A stretch of DNA of 33,289 nucleotides from an archaeon (GTDB taxonomy: Archaea > Nanobdellota > Nanobdellia > SCGC-AAA011-G17 > GCA-2687815): positions 1 to 33,289 of the forward strand of contig NZBH01000051.1 of the NCBI GenBank assembly GCA_002687815.1. Direction: 5' to 3'. Positions within the stretch are counted from its first letter, which is position 1. Each line of letters starts with the position of its first letter. The translations under genes and the position numbers were made by a program. This document shows positions 1-14,952 of the stretch, piece by piece. The notes below the pieces were generated by a model. The model made no database searches and had not been told where the DNA came from. It worked only from the letters and a program-made list of their open reading frames with translations.

Positions 1-1232
1 AACAATTATCAATAATATTAGGAGCTAAATTTGGAAGTCTTCTTTCATTAGGTATTGGACCAATTGTAACAGCATCTATCGTCTTGCAATTGTTGAATGG
101 TTCTGGTATTTTAAAGATAGATATGACTACAGAAGATGGTAAGAAAACTTTCCAAGGTTTACAGAAAGTATTGGCTTTATTTTTTATTATATTTGAAGCA
201 ATAATTTATGTTTTTATGGGTGGTTTGGCACCGTCTGCTGCTTTAACGGGTTCGGTTTTTAGATCTGTACAATTTTTATTAGTATTCCAGTTATTTTTAG
301 GCGGTTTGCTGATATTATTCATGGATGAGGTAGTTGCTAAATGGGGATTTGGTTCTGGTATTAGTTTATTTATAGCAGCTGGTGTTTCAGAACAAATTTT
401 TATTACTGCTTTGAGCCCATTAAATAGTGCTGGTAGATTAGCATGGGGTTCTGGTCTTCCTGCTATAGGAAAAGTTTGGATATTCTTTACTTCTTTATTT
501 AATGGAGATATAGTAAGCATGGGTCTTGCATTTGCAGCAATTGCTTCAACTATTTTTGTATTTTTATTAGCGGTATATGCACAAGCAATGAAAGTAGAAA
601 TACCTCTGTCTTTTGGTAGAGTCAGAGGTTATGGAATTAGATGGCCTTTAAGATTTATTTATACTTCAAATATACCAGTAATTTTAGTTGCAGCGCTAAT
701 GGCGAATATGCAATTATGGGCTAGATTGCTTGAAAGATGGGGTTATCCGCTATTAGGAACCTTCAGTGGGAACACTCCTGTTACTGGAATAGTATCTTGG
801 CTATTTTCTCCAAATGTTGTTAGAAATTTATTAACTGGTACGTTACAAGGGATAGATTTAGCTCATGCTGGAGTTTATATATTATTTATGATGGGTGGAG
901 CAGTAATATTCTCTATATTTTGGGTACAAACCTCTGGAATGGATGCAAGAAGTCAGGCAAAACAGATTATGTCTTCTGGTTTACAAATTCCAGGATTTAG
1001 AAGAGACCAAAGAGTCTTAGAAAGGATCTTGGGTAGATATATATTTCCATTAACAATAATGGGTGCTTTGACAGTTGGTTTTTTAGCAGCCTCAGCAGAC
1101 CTTTTAGGAGCTTTAAGCAGGGGTACTGGAATATTATTAGCTGTAATGATCATTTATAAGTTGTATGAAGATGTTTCTAAGCAACATATGATGGATATGC
1201 ATCCAATGTTGAGAAAAATGATGGGCAAGTAA
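1..1232 (+). CDS. secY: Preprotein translocase subunit SecY (5' partial; the reading frame is open to the window edge)
   Basis: The track ORF begins at an internal TTG (84). Upstream in-frame codons read QLSIILGAKFGSLLSLGIGPIVTASIVLQ, typical of SecY; multi-TM protein with C-terminal SecY motifs. Confidence 0.95.
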   Translation, partial: QLSIILGAKFGSLLSLGIGPIVTASIVLQLLNGSGILKIDMTTEDGKKTFQGLQKVLALFFIIFEAIIYVFMGGLAPSAALTGSVFRSVQFLLVFQLFLGGLLILFMDEVVAKWGFGSGISLFIAAGVSEQIFITALSPLNSAGRLAWGSGLPAIGKVWIFFTSLFNGDIVSMGLAFAAIASTIFVFLLAVYAQAMKVEIPLSFGRVRGYGIRWPLRFIYTSNIPVILVAALMANMQLWARLLERWGYPLLGTFSGNTPVTGIVSWLFSPNVVRNLLTGTLQGIDLAHAGVYILFMMGGAVIFSIFWVQTSGMDARSQAKQIMSSGLQIPGFRRDQRVLERILGRYIFPLTIMGALTVGFLAASADLLGALSRGTGILLAVMIIYKLYEDVSKQHMMDMHPMLRKMMGK

Positions 1233-1252
1233 GGTTTAATAAACAAAACCTT
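1231..1252 (+). other. Stem-loop between secY and the DUF106 gene
   Basis: AAGGTTT(1231-1237) / AAACCTT(1246-1252), a 7-bp perfect stem with an 8-nt loop right at the secY stop codon. Confidence 0.35.
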
Positions 1253-1284
1253 TAAAAATAGAAAAACTAAATTTATATTGTAAA

Positions 1285-1734
1285 ATGTTTGATTCATTTT
1301 TTAATACGGTATTGGGACCATTGATAGAATGGTCACCATTAGGAACGATTGTAATAGTGTCTTTTGCGTTAACATCACTAATTACTCTAGTCTATAAACT
1401 AATGACAGACCAAGAATTAATGAAATCTTTAAAAGCTGAGATAAAAGGATTTCAGCAAGAAATGAAAGAGCATAAAGAGGATAAAGAGAAGATGATGGAA
1501 CTTCAGAAAAGGGCTATGGAAAAGAATATGAAGTATATGAAGCATAGCATGAAACCAACATTAATTACATTTGTTCCAGTAATTATTATTTTTGGATGGT
1601 TAAGAACTACCTTTGAGTCAATTGGTAAAATAATGATACCAATAGTATCTGTTAATTTGAGTTGGTTTTGGATATATCTTGTATGTTCAATTGTTTTTAG
1701 TATTGTTCTTAGAAAAATTCTAAAAGTAAATTAA
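1285..1734 (+). CDS. DUF106/EMC3-type archaeal YidC-like membrane protein
   Basis: 149 aa with a TM helix, a long charged coiled coil rich in M/K/E, then two TM helices; located directly after secY as is common in archaea. Confidence 0.85.
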   Translation: MFDSFFNTVLGPLIEWSPLGTIVIVSFALTSLITLVYKLMTDQELMKSLKAEIKGFQQEMKEHKEDKEKMMELQKRAMEKNMKYMKHSMKPTLITFVPVIIIFGWLRTTFESIGKIMIPIVSVNLSWFWIYLVCSIVFSIVLRKILKVN

Positions 1735-1736
1735 AA

Positions 1737-2000
1737 ATGGCAGTAAAACATAAATCAAGAAGTTTGAGAAGAGTCTCTAGAAAATTACCTGGTGGAAAGG
1801 TTACAATTCAATATAAAAAAAGAAAACCAGGAAGAGCTAAATGTAGTAATTGCGGTAAACCTTTAATGGGTGTGCCAAGAGAGCTTCCATCTAAAATGAA
1901 GACTTTATCTAAAACAGAGAAAAGACCTGAAAGACCTTATGGTGGAGTTTTATGTTCTAAGTGTATGAGAAGTAAAATAATAAAAGAAGTAAGAAAATGA
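1737..2000 (+). CDS. rpl34e: Ribosomal protein L34e
   Basis: Zinc motif CSNCGKPL...CSKCMRSK; size and secY neighbourhood fit. Confidence 0.93.
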   Translation: MAVKHKSRSLRRVSRKLPGGKVTIQYKKRKPGRAKCSNCGKPLMGVPRELPSKMKTLSKTEKRPERPYGGVLCSKCMRSKIIKEVRK

Positions 2001-2299
2001 AAATTGGACAAATTTGTGTTAAAATTTCTGGTAGAGAAGCAAATAAGAAATGTGTTATTGTTGATATTGTTGATGATACATTTGTTTTAATAGATGGTAA
2101 TGTTAGAAGAAGAAAATGCAATGTTAAACATTTAGAGCCTCTTGATAAAGTTTTAAAAATTTCTAAGAAAGCTTCAACAGCAAAAGTACACGAAGCAATG
2201 AAAAAAGAAAAAATCGAAATTATTGAAAGAAAAAAGAAAAAAGTTACTAAAAAAGTTAAACCTCAAAGAAAACGAAAAGTAAAAAATGACGGAAAATAA
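1997..2299 (+). CDS. rpl14e: Ribosomal protein L14e
   Basis: MKIGQICVKISGREANKKCVIVDIVDDTFVLIDG...RRRKCNVKHLEPL matches L14e (KOW-like); overlaps the L34e stop by 4 nt. Confidence 0.92.
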   Translation: MKIGQICVKISGREANKKCVIVDIVDDTFVLIDGNVRRRKCNVKHLEPLDKVLKISKKASTAKVHEAMKKEKIEIIERKKKKVTKKVKPQRKRKVKNDGK

Positions 2300-2690
2300 T
2301 TCTCAAGAAAAATATTTAGAATTCCAAACTCTAAATCAAAAACTTGGTCAGATGAATCAAGAATTAAATTTGATGGAGCAGCAATTAATGGAACTTAAAA
2401 TAATTGAAGAAAGTTTGATTAATCTTAAAAAAGTAAAACCAGGAACTAAAACTCTTTCATCTGTTGGTCCGGGTATATTTGCTGAATCTAGATTGGATAA
2501 CAATAAAGAAGTTTTAATGAATATTGGAGCTTCAGTTGTAGTTAAAAAATCCATTTTAAGTGCAAAAACAACTATTTCAAATAAAGTTGAAAAAATAAAT
2601 GAATTGATGAAACAATTACAAAAAGAGATAGAAAGTGTAAATGGTAATTTACAAAAACTCTCAAGAGATCTTATAGAGAGTGAAAGATAA
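2286..2690 (+). CDS. pfdA: Prefoldin alpha subunit
   Basis: Two coiled-coil arms flanking a beta-hairpin segment (VGPGIFAESRLDNNKEVLMNIGASVVVKKS). Confidence 0.85.
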   Translation: MTENNSQEKYLEFQTLNQKLGQMNQELNLMEQQLMELKIIEESLINLKKVKPGTKTLSSVGPGIFAESRLDNNKEVLMNIGASVVVKKSILSAKTTISNKVEKINELMKQLQKEIESVNGNLQKLSRDLIESER

Positions 2691-2726: not shown

Positions 2727-3938
2727 ATGAATCCTTTGAGCTTTTATTCTAAAAAAGAAATTCAAAAAGCAATAGCTAAAATAGCTAAAGATAGAGAAAT
2801 TGTAGTAAAATATGGGGATAAAGGTTTTGGGAAAAGGCCTGATATTGTTCAATTTGATGGAGATATTTTAGAATTAGCAAAACAAGGTGTAACTTCTTTT
2901 CATATTTCAGAGGAACATTGGTCAGATCCTTTGAAATTACAGCCAGGTATGATGAAAAAACAATTAGATGAACTAAGAACTGGTTGGGATTTTTTAATAG
3001 ATATTGATGCTGAAGCCTTAGAATATTCTAAAGTTGCTGCTAATTTAATAGTAGAAGCATTAAAATTTCATGATATTAAAGATATATCTGTAAAATATTC
3101 TGGTAATAGAGGATTTCATATTGGAATTCCTTTTGAAGCGTTTCCTGACAAAGTAAATAATCAAGATACAAAGATGTTATTTCCTGAAGGTACAAGAGTA
3201 ATTGCTTTGTATTTAAAACAATTAATTGAAGAACAATTAAAAAGTATTCTTAAGAATGAAACTCCTTTTTCCTTGGTTGATGTTGATACTGTTTTAATAT
3301 CTAATAGGCATACATTTAGAGCTCCATATAGTTTACATGAGAAAACTGGTTTAGCTAGTATTCCAATAAAACCAGATCAAATTTTGAGTTTTAAAAAAGA
3401 ACAAGCAGAACCAGAAAAAGTAAAATTTGATATAAAATTTTTAGAAAATGTAAATAAAAATGAAGCTTCCCAATTAATAATACAGGCATTTGATTGGCAT
3501 TCTAAAAATATAATTAAAGTTGTTGAGATAAAACCTAATAGGGAATATGATATTCCTAAAATAGCAGTAAAAGAGGATTTTTTTCCGCCTTGTATAAAAT
3601 TTATTTTAGACGGACTAAAAGATGATGGAAGAAAAAGATCTTTATTTATTTTAATAAATTTTTTGAGTTCTCTTGGTTGGAAATCAGAAGATATGCAAAA
3701 TTTGTTATTGGAATGGGATAAGAAAAATCATTCTCCTTTGAAAGATGGTTATGTAAAATCCCAATTAATGTGGTATAAAAAAAGAAAAAAAGCAATTCTT
3801 CCACCTAATTGTAGTAATGAAGCGTATTACAAGAGTATTAATATTTGTAAACCTGATAATTTGTGTAAGATGATAAAGAATCCTGTTAATTATTCTGTTA
3901 GAAAAACTAGATTTAAAAAAAGAAAGAAAAAATCTTAA
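2727..3938 (+). CDS. priS: Single-polypeptide DNA primase: PriS catalytic domain fused to a PriL C-terminal (Fe-S) domain
   Basis: PriS motifs DFLIDIDAE, SGNRGFHIGIPFEAFP and SNRHTFRAPYSLHEKTGLASIPI; C-terminus has a PriL-like four-Cys pattern PPC...PPNC...NIC...NLC. Confidence 0.88.
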   Translation: MNPLSFYSKKEIQKAIAKIAKDREIVVKYGDKGFGKRPDIVQFDGDILELAKQGVTSFHISEEHWSDPLKLQPGMMKKQLDELRTGWDFLIDIDAEALEYSKVAANLIVEALKFHDIKDISVKYSGNRGFHIGIPFEAFPDKVNNQDTKMLFPEGTRVIALYLKQLIEEQLKSILKNETPFSLVDVDTVLISNRHTFRAPYSLHEKTGLASIPIKPDQILSFKKEQAEPEKVKFDIKFLENVNKNEASQLIIQAFDWHSKNIIKVVEIKPNREYDIPKIAVKEDFFPPCIKFILDGLKDDGRKRSLFILINFLSSLGWKSEDMQNLLLEWDKKNHSPLKDGYVKSQLMWYKKRKKAILPPNCSNEAYYKSINICKPDNLCKMIKNPVNYSVRKTRFKKRKKKS

Positions 3939-4603: not shown

Positions 4604-6340
4604 ATGAAAAAAATAAGTTTATTTTTATTTAGCCTGATTATTTTGTCTTCATTTGTATTTGCAACAACTAGTATTGAAAAAGGTGCTGATTGGCTTGTAA
4701 ATAATACAGATTGGAAAGATGATGGTATTGAAGAAGTAACTTTTTCTATTTTATCTTTAGATTTGGCTGAATTCTCTAATGAAGTTGAAGAAGGATTAGA
4801 TGAGCTTTTAAAAAGAGAAAATTCTGGTGATTGTTGGCCTAAAGGTACTTGTAAAGTAAAAGAAACAGCTTTGGCTTTATTAGTTCTTAATCATCTTGAT
4901 AAACCAACTTCTGAAGTTTTAGATTGGCTTTATGATGCACAAATTTCTGCTTTAGATACTGGGACTTTCTGGATTCAGATGGCATCTGATGTTGATGGGG
5001 ATTGTGTTTTAAATTATGATGGTAAGAAAAGAACATTTACACTTAAAGATAATAAAATTGCAAAATGTAGTAATAATCCTTGGTTAGATGTTGATTGTAT
5101 TGAGAAAAATTTCATGGTTGATTCTTTAAGTAGAGAAGTAGATGTTGATTGTTCTTCTTTACCGGGTAGTGTAATTATCTCTTTGATATATCAAACTGAT
5201 GATTCTTATTATTTACTTCAAGAAGAGCATAGTAATGCTGCAACTATTAAAATAAATAATGCTTGTTTTGGTACATCTTCAGTAAGTAGTTCTTGCGATT
5301 ATAAATCAACTGCTTTTGCAACCTGGGTTTTGTCTTTGTTGGGCGAAGAATTGAATACTATGTCCTATTTAGAAAGCGAAATTTCAGATGGTGATATTCT
5401 AAGTCATGCTTTACTTTACTTAATTACTAAAAAGAATGTTTATTCTAATTGGTTAGTTGAACATCAAAGTGCTTCTGGTAATTTTGGAGATATTTATACA
5501 ACTGCTTTTGCTAATCTTGCTTTAAAAGGAAATCCTGTTGCAAGTAATTCTACTGGGTGGTTGAAAATAAGACAAAAACTAGATGGTTCCTGGAATGATA
5601 ATATAAGAGATACTTCTGTTGTTTTATTTAGTCTTTTAGGAGGAATAGAAGGAAAGGATGTAACTGGGGAAAGTTGTACTGATTCTGGTTATACGTGTTG
5701 TGATTCTTGTGAAATGGGTTCTGAAAAACCTACCTATAATGATGGTTGTTATAGCGGTGAAGTTTGTTGTGATAAATGTGAATCTGTTGTAGTAGAATCT
5801 TATTGTGGTGATGGTACTTGTGATATTGAAGAGGATGAAGTATCTTGTCCTGAAGATTGTAAGGTTTCTGGTTATTGTGGTGATGGTACTTGTGATATTG
5901 AAGAGGATGAAGTATCTTGTCCTGAAGATTGTAGAGGAGAAATAGATGTTCCTACAAGTTTTTGTGGTGATGGAGAATGTGAAATGGATGAAGATGGATC
6001 ATCTTGCCCCGAAGATTGTAAAGGATTTCCAACATGGATTATTGTAATTTTAGTAATTATTTTATTGGGAGTTGGCTTTTATTTTGTTTATAATAAATTT
6101 TTGAAAGGTAAAATTAAATTACCTGATATTTCCAAAATAATTAAATTTAAGATAGGATCTGGTAAGAAACAGCCTGCTAGAGTTCCTGCACAAAGACCTG
6201 CTTATCCTGCAAGAAGACAACCACTAGTTGCGAGAGGTAGAGCTGCTCCAAGAAGAATGTCTCCAAGAAGATCAAAAGTAGAAACTGAGCTTGAGAAATC
6301 CTTAAATGAAGCAAAAAAATTATTAGGTAAGAAAAAATGA
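4604..6340 (+). CDS. Secreted/anchored protein: signal peptide, alpha/alpha-toroid (prenyltransferase/squalene-cyclase-like) domain, Cys-rich CGDGxC repeats, TM helix, basic tail
   Basis: N-terminal MKKISLFLFSLIILSSFVFA; toroid motifs (QKLDGSWNDNIRDTSVVLFSLLG); three CGDGxCxxxEDxxSCPEDC repeats; TM WIIVILVIILLGVGFYFVY; Arg/Lys-rich C-terminus. Confidence 0.75.
   Translation: MKKISLFLFSLIILSSFVFATTSIEKGADWLVNNTDWKDDGIEEVTFSILSLDLAEFSNEVEEGLDELLKRENSGDCWPKGTCKVKETALALLVLNHLDKPTSEVLDWLYDAQISALDTGTFWIQMASDVDGDCVLNYDGKKRTFTLKDNKIAKCSNNPWLDVDCIEKNFMVDSLSREVDVDCSSLPGSVIISLIYQTDDSYYLLQEEHSNAATIKINNACFGTSSVSSSCDYKSTAFATWVLSLLGEELNTMSYLESEISDGDILSHALLYLITKKNVYSNWLVEHQSASGNFGDIYTTAFANLALKGNPVASNSTGWLKIRQKLDGSWNDNIRDTSVVLFSLLGGIEGKDVTGESCTDSGYTCCDSCEMGSEKPTYNDGCYSGEVCCDKCESVVVESYCGDGTCDIEEDEVSCPEDCKVSGYCGDGTCDIEEDEVSCPEDCRGEIDVPTSFCGDGECEMDEDGSSCPEDCKGFPTWIIVILVIILLGVGFYFVYNKFLKGKIKLPDISKIIKFKIGSGKKQPARVPAQRPAYPARRQPLVARGRAAPRRMSPRRSKVETELEKSLNEAKKLLGKKK
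5801..5933 (+). repeat. Tandem 72-nt duplication encoding YCGDGTCDIEEDEVSCPEDC
   Basis: Copies start at 5801 and 5873 and are identical for about 61 nt; a third diverged protein copy (FCGDGECEMDEDGSSCPEDC) follows. Confidence 0.95.
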
Positions 6341-6957: not shown

Positions 6958-8390
6958 TTTCTTATTCTTTGAAAGATTAGTAGTATTAAAACAGCACAAA
7001 AGAAAAATATTGTTGACCTTTTGGCTTTAATTTCGTTTGATTCGTAGATAATCTTTCCAGTAATTTCCTCCATATCTCTATATATAACCTTTTCGTAATT
7101 TTGATCTGTATTTTCACTACCTGCCTTTTTTATATCTGTTATTGTTTTTTCTTTCTTGATACTTTTACTCTTTTTTTCACATAAATTGCTTTCGCCTTGT
7201 ATTTTTATTTCTTTTGAATCTTTTTCTCCTAAACCTTCTAAGATTAATTCATATAAATTATCTTCAAATTTTCCATTACAATTTAAATCTATTTGTATTG
7301 GTAAGGTTAATTCATATTCTTCAAATTTATCTTCTGCGTTAAATTTAGTTTTTTTGCTTATATCTTGTTCTAATCCTAGACTAATACTCTCTTTTCCCGT
7401 ATCTCCCCTATACACATTTACTTTGATTCTTATGGTGTCGCCCCATTTTGCTTTATTGTCATTTCCAAGGTATATTTTTTCTATACTGATTTTAGAATCT
7501 TTTTCCAAATCTTTTTCTTGTATTATAAAAAATTTAAGATCTTGATTGTTTTCTAGATTAAAGTCATTACAAGATGTTTTTATTGTTGTATTTATGAAGT
7601 ATAAACCTGGAGAGTAATTTGGTGTCCAAGGGCCATCAAAATTTGTTTTATAGATAGCTGTTTTTGTTTTTGGTTGATAATTACTTATAATATTTCCATA
7701 AACATCTTTTATTTCTCTGTATAATATAATTTCTGTTGAAGAACCACCTATTTTTTCTACATTTACATTAAATTCAAAATCTCCAGAGTTATCAAAATAT
7801 TGTTCATATAATTTTATTTCAATTTTCCAATCACATTCATTTTCATAATAATCTATAAAACTTCCATTGTTAGAGTATCCTGGTGTTGGTTCTGCATCCC
7901 ATGGATTATTATTTTCATCTTTAATTATAGATTTCCCATTTTGCGTGTTTTCATATGTTAAATTATCAATTAGATTTCCATTTTTGTTATATAGAAATAA
8001 AATATCACCAGAATTTGATAAACCGTTTCCTATTGCTTCATCATTAACGTATAATTTAGTTGTGTTGTATAAAACTTTGAAATTATTATACACTCTTGTA
8101 TTTGAATCTGTAACCAGAGCATAGCTATTTGGATTAATTATTGTTCCATTATATCCATACAAACCGCCTTCAATTGTATCATTATCATTAATATCGCCAA
8201 TTATCCATTCTGAAACATCAATTGGGTTTTGTGTTGGATTATAAAGCTCTATATATTCATTTAGAGATTCATCATAAAGAGGATCTGCCATTACTTCGTT
8301 AATTATAATATTTGCATAAACTAATTGAGAGAGTAAGATTAAACTAAGACCATATACCTGAAATTTTTTTACCACAAGTACATTTACCAT
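6954..8390 (-). CDS. Secreted lamin-tail-domain (LTD) protein with C-terminal TM anchor
   Basis: Signal peptide-like KKFQVYGLSLILLSQLVYA, then IIINEVMADPLYDESLNEYIELYNPTQNPIDVSEW (LTD), beta-rich region, C-terminal TM. Confidence 0.82.
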   Translation of the reverse strand: MVNVLVVKKFQVYGLSLILLSQLVYANIIINEVMADPLYDESLNEYIELYNPTQNPIDVSEWIIGDINDNDTIEGGLYGYNGTIINPNSYALVTDSNTRVYNNFKVLYNTTKLYVNDEAIGNGLSNSGDILFLYNKNGNLIDNLTYENTQNGKSIIKDENNNPWDAEPTPGYSNNGSFIDYYENECDWKIEIKLYEQYFDNSGDFEFNVNVEKIGGSSTEIILYREIKDVYGNIISNYQPKTKTAIYKTNFDGPWTPNYSPGLYFINTTIKTSCNDFNLENNQDLKFFIIQEKDLEKDSKISIEKIYLGNDNKAKWGDTIRIKVNVYRGDTGKESISLGLEQDISKKTKFNAEDKFEEYELTLPIQIDLNCNGKFEDNLYELILEGLGEKDSKEIKIQGESNLCEKKSKSIKKEKTITDIKKAGSENTDQNYEKVIYRDMEEITGKIIYESNEIKAKRSTIFFFCAVLILLIFQRIRK

Positions 8391-9348
8391 TTTTAATGTT
8401 ATTTTGTGATATTGTAAAGCCCATTCTTTCTATTAATAGTTTCTTACATTTTGAACAGTATGTATTTTCTGAATTTTCAATGTTTATGTTTCCAATATAA
8501 ATATATTTCAATCCAGTTTTTAATGCAATTTCTTTTGCTTTTAGCAATGTTTCTTTTGGTGTTGGTTTTATGTTTAGCATTTTATACATTGGAAAAAATC
8601 TTGAAAAATGTAGGGGGGTATTTTCTCCCAGATTATCTTTGATCCATGTGCACATTTTTTTTATTTCTTCTATGTTATCATTCTTTTTAGGAATAATTAG
8701 ATTAGTAATTTCTAACCATACATTATTTTCTTTTAATATCTTTAATGTGTTTAGAATTGATTTAAGAGATGCAGTTGTAAGCTCTTTGTAGAATTTATCA
8801 TCAAAACTTTTTAGATCTATATTGGCAGCATCTAAATACTTACAAAAATCTTTTAATGGTTCTTTGTTAATAAACCCGTTACTTACAATTATGTTTTTTA
8901 ATTTATTTTTTCTAGCTAATTTTGCAATATCTAAAAAGTATTCTATTGCTATTGTTGGTTCTGTGTAGGTGTATGAAATACTTTTACATTTTTCTTCTAT
9001 TGCTTTTTTAACAATTTCTTCTGAAGTTAAGTCTAAATGAGAGATTTCTTCTGGTTTACATTGAGAGATTTCCCAATTTTGGCAATATAGACAATGTAAA
9101 TTACATCCTGCTGTGGCTATAGAAAAGATATTTGTTACTGGTAGAAAATGATATAATGGCTTTTTTTCTATCTTGTCAACATGAACAGTACAAGGTTTTT
9201 CATAAACCAAAGAATAAAGATTTCCATTTTTATTGATTCTAACACCACAATTGCCCTTTGAGTCTTCTTTTATGGTGCAGAATCTAGGACATAATTGGCA
9301 TTGAACTATTTTATTTTTTAATTTTTTATAATAACTAGCTTCTTTCAT
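8344..9348 (-). CDS. AmmeMemoRadiSam-type radical SAM enzyme (PflA-related)
   Basis: CQLCPRFCTI...GNCGVRINKNG, VDKIEKKPLYHFLP, radical SAM motif CNLHCLYC followed by QNWEISQ, C-terminal zinc motif YCSKCKKLLIERMGF...GKCTCGKKISGIW. Confidence 0.88.
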   Translation of the reverse strand: MKEASYYKKLKNKIVQCQLCPRFCTIKEDSKGNCGVRINKNGNLYSLVYEKPCTVHVDKIEKKPLYHFLPVTNIFSIATAGCNLHCLYCQNWEISQCKPEEISHLDLTSEEIVKKAIEEKCKSISYTYTEPTIAIEYFLDIAKLARKNKLKNIIVSNGFINKEPLKDFCKYLDAANIDLKSFDDKFYKELTTASLKSILNTLKILKENNVWLEITNLIIPKKNDNIEEIKKMCTWIKDNLGENTPLHFSRFFPMYKMLNIKPTPKETLLKAKEIALKTGLKYIYIGNINIENSENTYCSKCKKLLIERMGFTISQNNIKNGKCTCGKKISGIWS

Positions 9349-13705: not shown

Positions 13706-13978
13706 TTAGTATCTAACCTCAAAACTATTAAATTCATTGTTAACTTTTCCTTCTTTAATTTCTACATCTTTTATATTAGCACCAGATGGTCCTTTTTTAC
13801 AGAACTTAAGAATTTCATTTATGTTTTCTTCTTTACCTTCAAAAATAGCTTCTACCTTTCCATTTGGTAAGTTTTTAACAAAACCTTTTAGATTTAATTT
13901 ATTAGCTTTTTCTTTGATGTTTGATCTGAAGAAAACACCTTGCACTATTCCAGAAATAAAAATATGGACTCTTTTCAT
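13706..13978 (-). CDS. acyP: Acylphosphatase
   Basis: VHIFISGIVQGVFFRSNIKEKANKLNLKGFVKNLPNGKVEAIFEG. Confidence 0.95.
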   Translation of the reverse strand: MKRVHIFISGIVQGVFFRSNIKEKANKLNLKGFVKNLPNGKVEAIFEGKEENINEILKFCKKGPSGANIKDVEIKEGKVNNEFNSFEVRY

Positions 13979-14952
13979 ATTGGTTCTGCAAGATAAATAT
14001 TATCTTTATCTCTTAAAATCTTTACTCTTATTGTTTTATCTATTTCACCATTACAATTTATTATGGCAATAGATCTATTTTTTGCTACCCCTATCATTTG
14101 ATTTTTTATCCAACCAAATGTCTTAATTTTAACATTGGTTTTTTCATTTTTTCTAAAAACTTTTGGTAAACTTTTTCTCTTTTCTATGCCTAGTTCTTTT
14201 GGATTCATTTTTAAGTTAATATCAAATTCTTTTTCCCATTCTTTTAGTTGTTTGTAGAATTTATACCAATTCATTCTTTTTATTCCTTTAATCTTTCTTC
14301 CATATTTGTGTACTTCATATTTTTGAATACCAATTTTTGCATTAATTTCTTTTGAGAATTTTATTAAATCTATAATATCTTGATCATTTATTTTTGGAAT
14401 CCAGACTGGTGTAAGAACTAATTCTATTTTGTTTTTAGTAATTTCTTTAGCAGCTTCTATTATTTTGTCAATATTGTAAGAATTTATTCCGCATAGTTTT
14501 TTAGCTAAATCTTTGTCTAAACTATGGATAGATAGATTAATTTGATTTAAACCAGCCTTTTTAAGATCGCTTATTAATTTTTTATTTAGTAGAACTCCAT
14601 TTGATTCCATTATTATTTTTTTAACTTCTTTTATTTTAGAAATTTCTTTGATAAGTTCAATTAAATTTGGATATGTTGTGGAATCTCCAACAGAATCTAA
14701 TAAAATTATTGAATTGCCTTTAAATTTTACAATTTCTTTTATGTATTGTAATAGATAATTTGGTTCTACGATGTATTCAACTGGATGTACTTCTGAATTA
14801 TTAGCGTTTGTAGAACAAAAAGTGCATTTAAGATTGCAGATAGTTGTTGGTCTAACTTGGATTATGTTTGTTCCACGATCTATGCAGCCAAACATTACTG
14901 CTCCAACTAAAGGAATCTCGCTTTTTTTGTCTATTTTTATAATTTTTACCAT
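13975..14952 (-). CDS. Radical SAM protein (COG2100-like) with C-terminal TRAM-like domain
   Basis: RPTTICNLKCTFCSTNA radical SAM motif; C-terminal small beta-rich domain; ATGA overlap with acyP. Confidence 0.75.
   Translation of the reverse strand: MVKIIKIDKKSEIPLVGAVMFGCIDRGTNIIQVRPTTICNLKCTFCSTNANNSEVHPVEYIVEPNYLLQYIKEIVKFKGNSIILLDSVGDSTTYPNLIELIKEISKIKEVKKIIMESNGVLLNKKLISDLKKAGLNQINLSIHSLDKDLAKKLCGINSYNIDKIIEAAKEITKNKIELVLTPVWIPKINDQDIIDLIKFSKEINAKIGIQKYEVHKYGRKIKGIKRMNWYKFYKQLKEWEKEFDINLKMNPKELGIEKRKSLPKVFRKNEKTNVKIKTFGWIKNQMIGVAKNRSIAIINCNGEIDKTIRVKILRDKDNIYLAEPI

Follow-up and report, generated by a model that had tools for sequence, protein, structure and literature searches.

Does the open reading frame at positions 2727 to 3938 of this archaeal DNA (33,289 nucleotides, the whole stretch being referred to as the window) encode a replicative primase in which both subunits share a single chain? 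The original prediction read it as a PriS catalytic subunit fused to the C-terminal domain of PriL, with four candidate Fe-S cysteines and without the PriL N-terminal domain. We are highly confident that the gene codes for such a single-chain fused replicative primase of the DPANN type, made of a PriS core and a PriL C-terminal domain. This reading was weighed against a borderline PriL Pfam score, weak Foldseek matches of the C-terminal domain, the absence of SufBD, the absence of a PriS zinc motif and a genome completeness of 88%.

Domain layout of the predicted primase

The ORF has exactly the coordinates given originally, and the opposite strand contains stop codons throughout. The predicted protein is laid out as follows.

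2727..3938, + strand: fused PriS/PriL-CTD primase, 403 aa plus stop, ATG start
2727..3389, + strand: PriS-like catalytic (prim-pol) core, about residues 1-221 (PF01896 at residues 100-215, confident model, Foldseek matches to AEP prim-pol folds)
3513..3548, + strand: flexible linker, residues 263-274 (pLDDT <50), standing where the PriL N-terminal domain would be
3552..3935, + strand: PriL C-terminal (Fe-S/initiation) domain, residues 276-403 (PF04104 at residues 280-384, alignment with 9f26_B, PriX and PriL-CTD fold matches)

The match to PriS and PriL features exceeds chance. On the window protein, the Pfam PriS model PF01896 scored 31.3 bits (cut-off 26.8, E = 3.3e-7) and the PriL model PF04104 scored 22.3 bits (cut-off 22.4, E = 9.6e-5), the latter lying 0.1 bit below its cut-off on the protein alone and slightly above it in the genome search. 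The NCBIfam PriL models that cover the domain align from residues ~241-280 of the protein onward with model positions from ~197-220 of ~350-360, thereby indicating that the protein contains no more of PriL than its C-terminal part. Together with the predicted linker, this model coverage supports the proposal that the PriL N-terminal domain is absent. Curated annotation cut-offs miss this primase, which is useful to know: the protein scored 30.5 bits where the NCBI PriS equivalog demands 143.5, and 33.1 bits where one PriL model demands 431. The position of fused primases below such cut-offs may be the reason why a 2021 survey credited PriSL among DPANN mainly to Micrarchaeota, Altiarchaeota and Diapherotrites (PMC8407392).

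AlphaFold2 modelled the full protein with a mean pLDDT of 87 and a pTM of 0.64; one helix and the single disordered stretch, residues 263-274, join the core to the C-terminal domain in the predicted fold. Foldseek searches with the whole model returned AEP prim-pol folds, among them the PriS structures of P. furiosus (1g71) and human, with bacterial Prim-PolC and LigD-Pol as the top matches. As the prim-pol core swamped this search and made it uninformative on the C-terminal domain, the domain was predicted and searched separately (pLDDT 90, pTM 0.84). Its top three matches were all PriX, followed lower in the list by primase large-subunit chains from yeast, human and Xenopus. Although weak (best E = 0.34), these scores lend support to PriX and PriL-CTD as the closest solved folds, in line with the predicted identity of the domain.

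The C-terminal domain and its candidate iron-sulfur site

Five features of the C-terminal domain bear on its function.

3591..3593, + strand: C289, candidate 4Fe-4S ligand 1 (FPPC), aligned with 9f26_B PriL
3624..3638, + strand: DGRKR, residues 300-304, predicted initiating-NTP site motif
3810..3812, + strand: C362, candidate ligand 2 (PPNC), from the 9f26_B and family alignments
3846..3848, + strand: C374, candidate ligand 3, from the same two alignments
3864..3866, + strand: C380, candidate ligand 4, from the same two alignments

The protein has four cysteines in total, at positions 289 (PPC), 362 (PPNC), 374 (NIC) and 380 (NLC). Pyrococcus abyssi PriL (9f26_B) is its sole clear sequence match in the PDB, and the FPPC, PPNC and C-x5-C pair of that chain align with all four, confirming the PriL-like order that had been read from the window. 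A profile built from 67 C-terminal domains also recovered 9f26_B (E = 2.6e-7), and at least four cysteines were found in the C-terminal segment of 127 of the 135 family members in which this segment is readable.

The most likely role of the four cysteines is to bind a structural 4Fe-4S cluster. Their positions and surroundings agree with those of archaeal PriL, which argues against the same fused primase carrying zinc, or nothing, at this site, an alternative that we consider unlikely. It draws on the Fe-S assembly genes, as SufBD (PF01458) had no match in the window's own genome (819 kb, 58 contigs, 88% complete) nor in ten related genomes but was present in 14 out of 14 control genomes, and on the relatives from which three or all four cysteines have disappeared, the site being dispensable there. 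However, radical-SAM enzymes require 4Fe-4S clusters, and the many radical-SAM genes of this genome show that the cell makes them; a candidate ApbC/Nbp35-like carrier (partial match) is present as well. Radical-SAM matches number 52 in this genome, many of them in tandem arrays (for example at L167 on contig C47, which alone has eleven, and at L168 on contig C14), and the six same-order relatives checked have 4 to 11. The arrays lie on small contigs and a binning error is possible; two radical-SAM genes are located in the window itself (8344-9348 and 13975-14952).

The second feature of the domain is its DGRKR motif, found as DG[RK]KR in 136 of 137 aligned sequences and as EGRKR in the remaining one. 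In Sulfolobus, PriL-CTD is replaced by PriX, in which D70 and 72-RKR-74 bind the initiating nucleotide (PMC5700102), and D300-G-R302-K303-R304 of the window protein has the same spacing.

The catalytic core and the primase genes of the genome

The PriS catalytic motifs that had been claimed for the N-terminal part were all found.

3000..3008, + strand: catalytic D92-I-D94, both aspartates invariant in 137 sequences
3099..3119, + strand: SGNRGFH, residues 125-131, predicted nucleotide-binding motif (S125, G126 and H131 invariant in 137 sequences, G129 kept in 135)
3285..3287, + strand: D187, predicted third catalytic aspartate, invariant in 137 sequences
3306..3320, + strand: R194-H195-x-x-R198 motif, H195 and R198 invariant in 137 sequences

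D92, D94, S125, G126, H131, D187, H195 and R198 are thus identical in 137 out of 137 aligned sequences. By motif, SGNRGFH is the counterpart of SGRRG..H in human PriS, and the role proposed for D187 follows human D306 (PMC4434180). The region of the R194-H195-x-x-R198 motif aligns with residues 314-349 of human PriS. No cysteine-based PriS zinc motif was found, as residues 1-288 contain no cysteine and no such motif lies between D94 and S125.

The window's own genome has one PriS and one PriL match, both within the fused ORF; neither a separate priS nor a separate priL was found in this 88%-complete assembly. Across this genome and 60 same-order relatives, PriL matches were found in 51 of 61, never more than one per genome and in each case at the fused primase. 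The full-length fused-primase profile matched in 267 of the 279 genomes of the phylum (96%); of the matches listed, most run through almost the entire model in a single open frame, and a few have internal stops or are split in two pieces. Homologues in many relatives, which are Woesearchaeota and Nanoarchaeota in the named records, are 52-59% identical across nearly their full length.

These results bear on whether the gene codes instead for a PriS-like repair polymerase of the LigD-Pol or PrimPol type, which we hold to be very improbable. PF21686 (LigD_Prim-Pol) fits the protein almost as well as the PriS model does (26.7 bits against a cut-off of 27.4), yet it too falls below its cut-off, and TIGR02778 reached only 24.7 of 214.7 bits. 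Bacterial Prim-PolC and LigD-Pol lead the Foldseek list, but the prim-pol fold is common to all AEPs, so these matches do not discriminate. Moreover, the protein has a PriL C-terminal domain with an initiation motif and four cysteines, and it is encoded by the sole PriS/PriL-type gene found in a genome whose phylum almost universally has one. That a separate priL lies in the ~12% of the genome missing from the 58 contigs, the fused ORF being an extra primase, is scarcely credible, since all PriL matches in the 60 same-order relatives, several of which are 98-100% complete, fall within the fused ORF.

The genes upstream of the fused primase are also conserved.

84..2690, + strand: secY, EMC3/TMCO1-like, L34e, L14e and prefoldin genes, assigned by Pfam (the L14e match is weak and below its cut-off)

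Most related loci that extend far enough for the comparison show the order secY, EMC3-like, L34e, L14e, prefoldin, primase, whereas PriS in other archaea is found in a PCNA/Gins15 neighbourhood instead (PMC2643942). On the other side of the primase, positions 4604-6340 (+ strand) code for a predicted secreted or membrane protein of 578 aa with repeated CGDGTCDxxEDExSCPEDC units, for which no Pfam match was found; L040, L041 and L051 also have this repeat protein close to their primase.

The sequence, the domain content, the conservation of residues and the lack of another priS or priL match are established here, and they suggest how the fused primase could work. The PriS core would bind metal ions through D92, D94 and probably D187, hold the incoming nucleotide through SGNRGFH and the R/H motif, and make the phosphodiester bonds, presumably those of primers in the cell. 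The C-terminal domain would be tethered by the short flexible linker that replaces the PriL N-terminal arm, and would hold the initiating nucleotide through D300, R302, K303 and R304 and deliver it to the catalytic centre, where the first dinucleotide would form, by analogy with PriX. Given that the D-x-R-K-R spacing is that of PriX and that all but one of the 137 sequences retain the motif, the best-supported mechanism appears to be one in which the tethered C-terminal domain initiates and the PriS core then extends.

Known fused primases and the loss of the cluster cysteines

The primase of Nanoarchaeum equitans was described as a PriS N-terminal region fused to a PriL C-terminal region (Berthon et al. 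2008, PMC2643942), and the domain content of the window protein supports the resemblance that had been proposed; the likeness to this protein (NEQ395) is by description, as NEQ395 was not among the loci compared. The same fused architecture was reported for all Cluster 2 DPANN (Dombrowski et al. 2020, PMC7414124). Hence the idea that the window extends a rare architecture did not hold, and the expectation that the primase would help place the genome was met down to the large Cluster 2 clade and no finer. Like the fused primases of Undinarchaeota/Cluster 2 DPANN, the window protein is encoded by one ORF without a separate priL in the same archaeal group, and its near full-length homologues and conserved gene order indicate that it is orthologous to them; it is a member of these primases with no notable difference, and another sequence for a known synapomorphy, read correctly. 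The biochemistry of the NEQ395 primase has reportedly been described by Schneider et al. in 2023 (NAR 51:5087).

Other known systems share parts of this arrangement. Heterodimeric PriSL of Pyrococcus has the same catalytic motifs and a four-cysteine PriL-CTD, whereas the window protein combines both parts in a single chain and lacks both the PriL N-terminal domain and the PriS cysteine zinc motif; canonical PriSL has a separate full-length priL, for which no counterpart was found in the window's own genome or the 60 relatives. Sulfolobus PriX and the pRN1 helix-bundle domain share the D-x-R-K-R initiating-nucleotide motif and a helical fold with the window protein, but PriX replaces the Fe-S domain and needs no cluster (PMC5700102), while the window protein has four cysteines in a domain fused to PriS. 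PolpTN2 of plasmid pTN2 (PMC3973330) is likewise a PriS-PriL fusion with four conserved cysteines; it is plasmid-borne, contains both PriL domains and is 923 aa long, judging from the names of its truncations, in contrast to the 403-aa window protein, which lacks the PriL N-terminal domain and is encoded on the chromosome beside secY and ribosomal protein genes.

Family members also differ in length. Compared with its Cluster 2 relatives, the window protein is among the shortest forms, with a minimal segment between residues 170 and 187, the one site at which 20 of 137 sequences contain a cysteine-rich, zinc-ribbon-like insert with at least three CxxC pairs. Carriers of this insert are scattered over the class (e.g., L037, L038, L054 and L133), and its site presumably differs from the location of the zinc motif in canonical PriS. 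Inteins were observed just ahead of the DxD motif in L033 (904-3807, + strand; Pfam Intein_splicing match and LAGLIDADG_3 above its cut-off) and at the SGNxGFH motif in L034 (887-3643, - strand; Intein_splicing match). L035 (813-2663, - strand) is intein-like by sequence at the same site as in L033, and its locus runs off the contig.

The novel part of this analysis is not the window protein but a probable clade of relatives that lack the cysteines. Among the 135 readable C-terminal segments, that of L122 has three cysteines, and those of seven others (L012, L015, L046, L047, L048, L054 and L118) have at most one. These seven lack three or all four cluster cysteines, with PPNY in place of PPNC, but their catalytic residues and DG[RK]KR motif are retained. 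A free quick tree gave two independent losses, a scenario that was dropped when grouping the seven sequences improved the likelihood by 11.9 units (p-AU 0.66); a single loss is the simpler reading and is compatible with the data. A link between the loss of the cysteines and that of Fe-S assembly was rejected, as SufBD is missing from cysteine-keeping and cysteine-lacking genomes alike. We think it probable that, in a Woesearchaeota-type clade, the fused primase has naturally lost its Fe-S cluster but not its catalytic and initiation residues. If so, comparing this clade with close four-cysteine relatives such as the window protein, as controls, would amount to a natural test of the idea that the cluster of the primase has a structural role and can be dispensed with.
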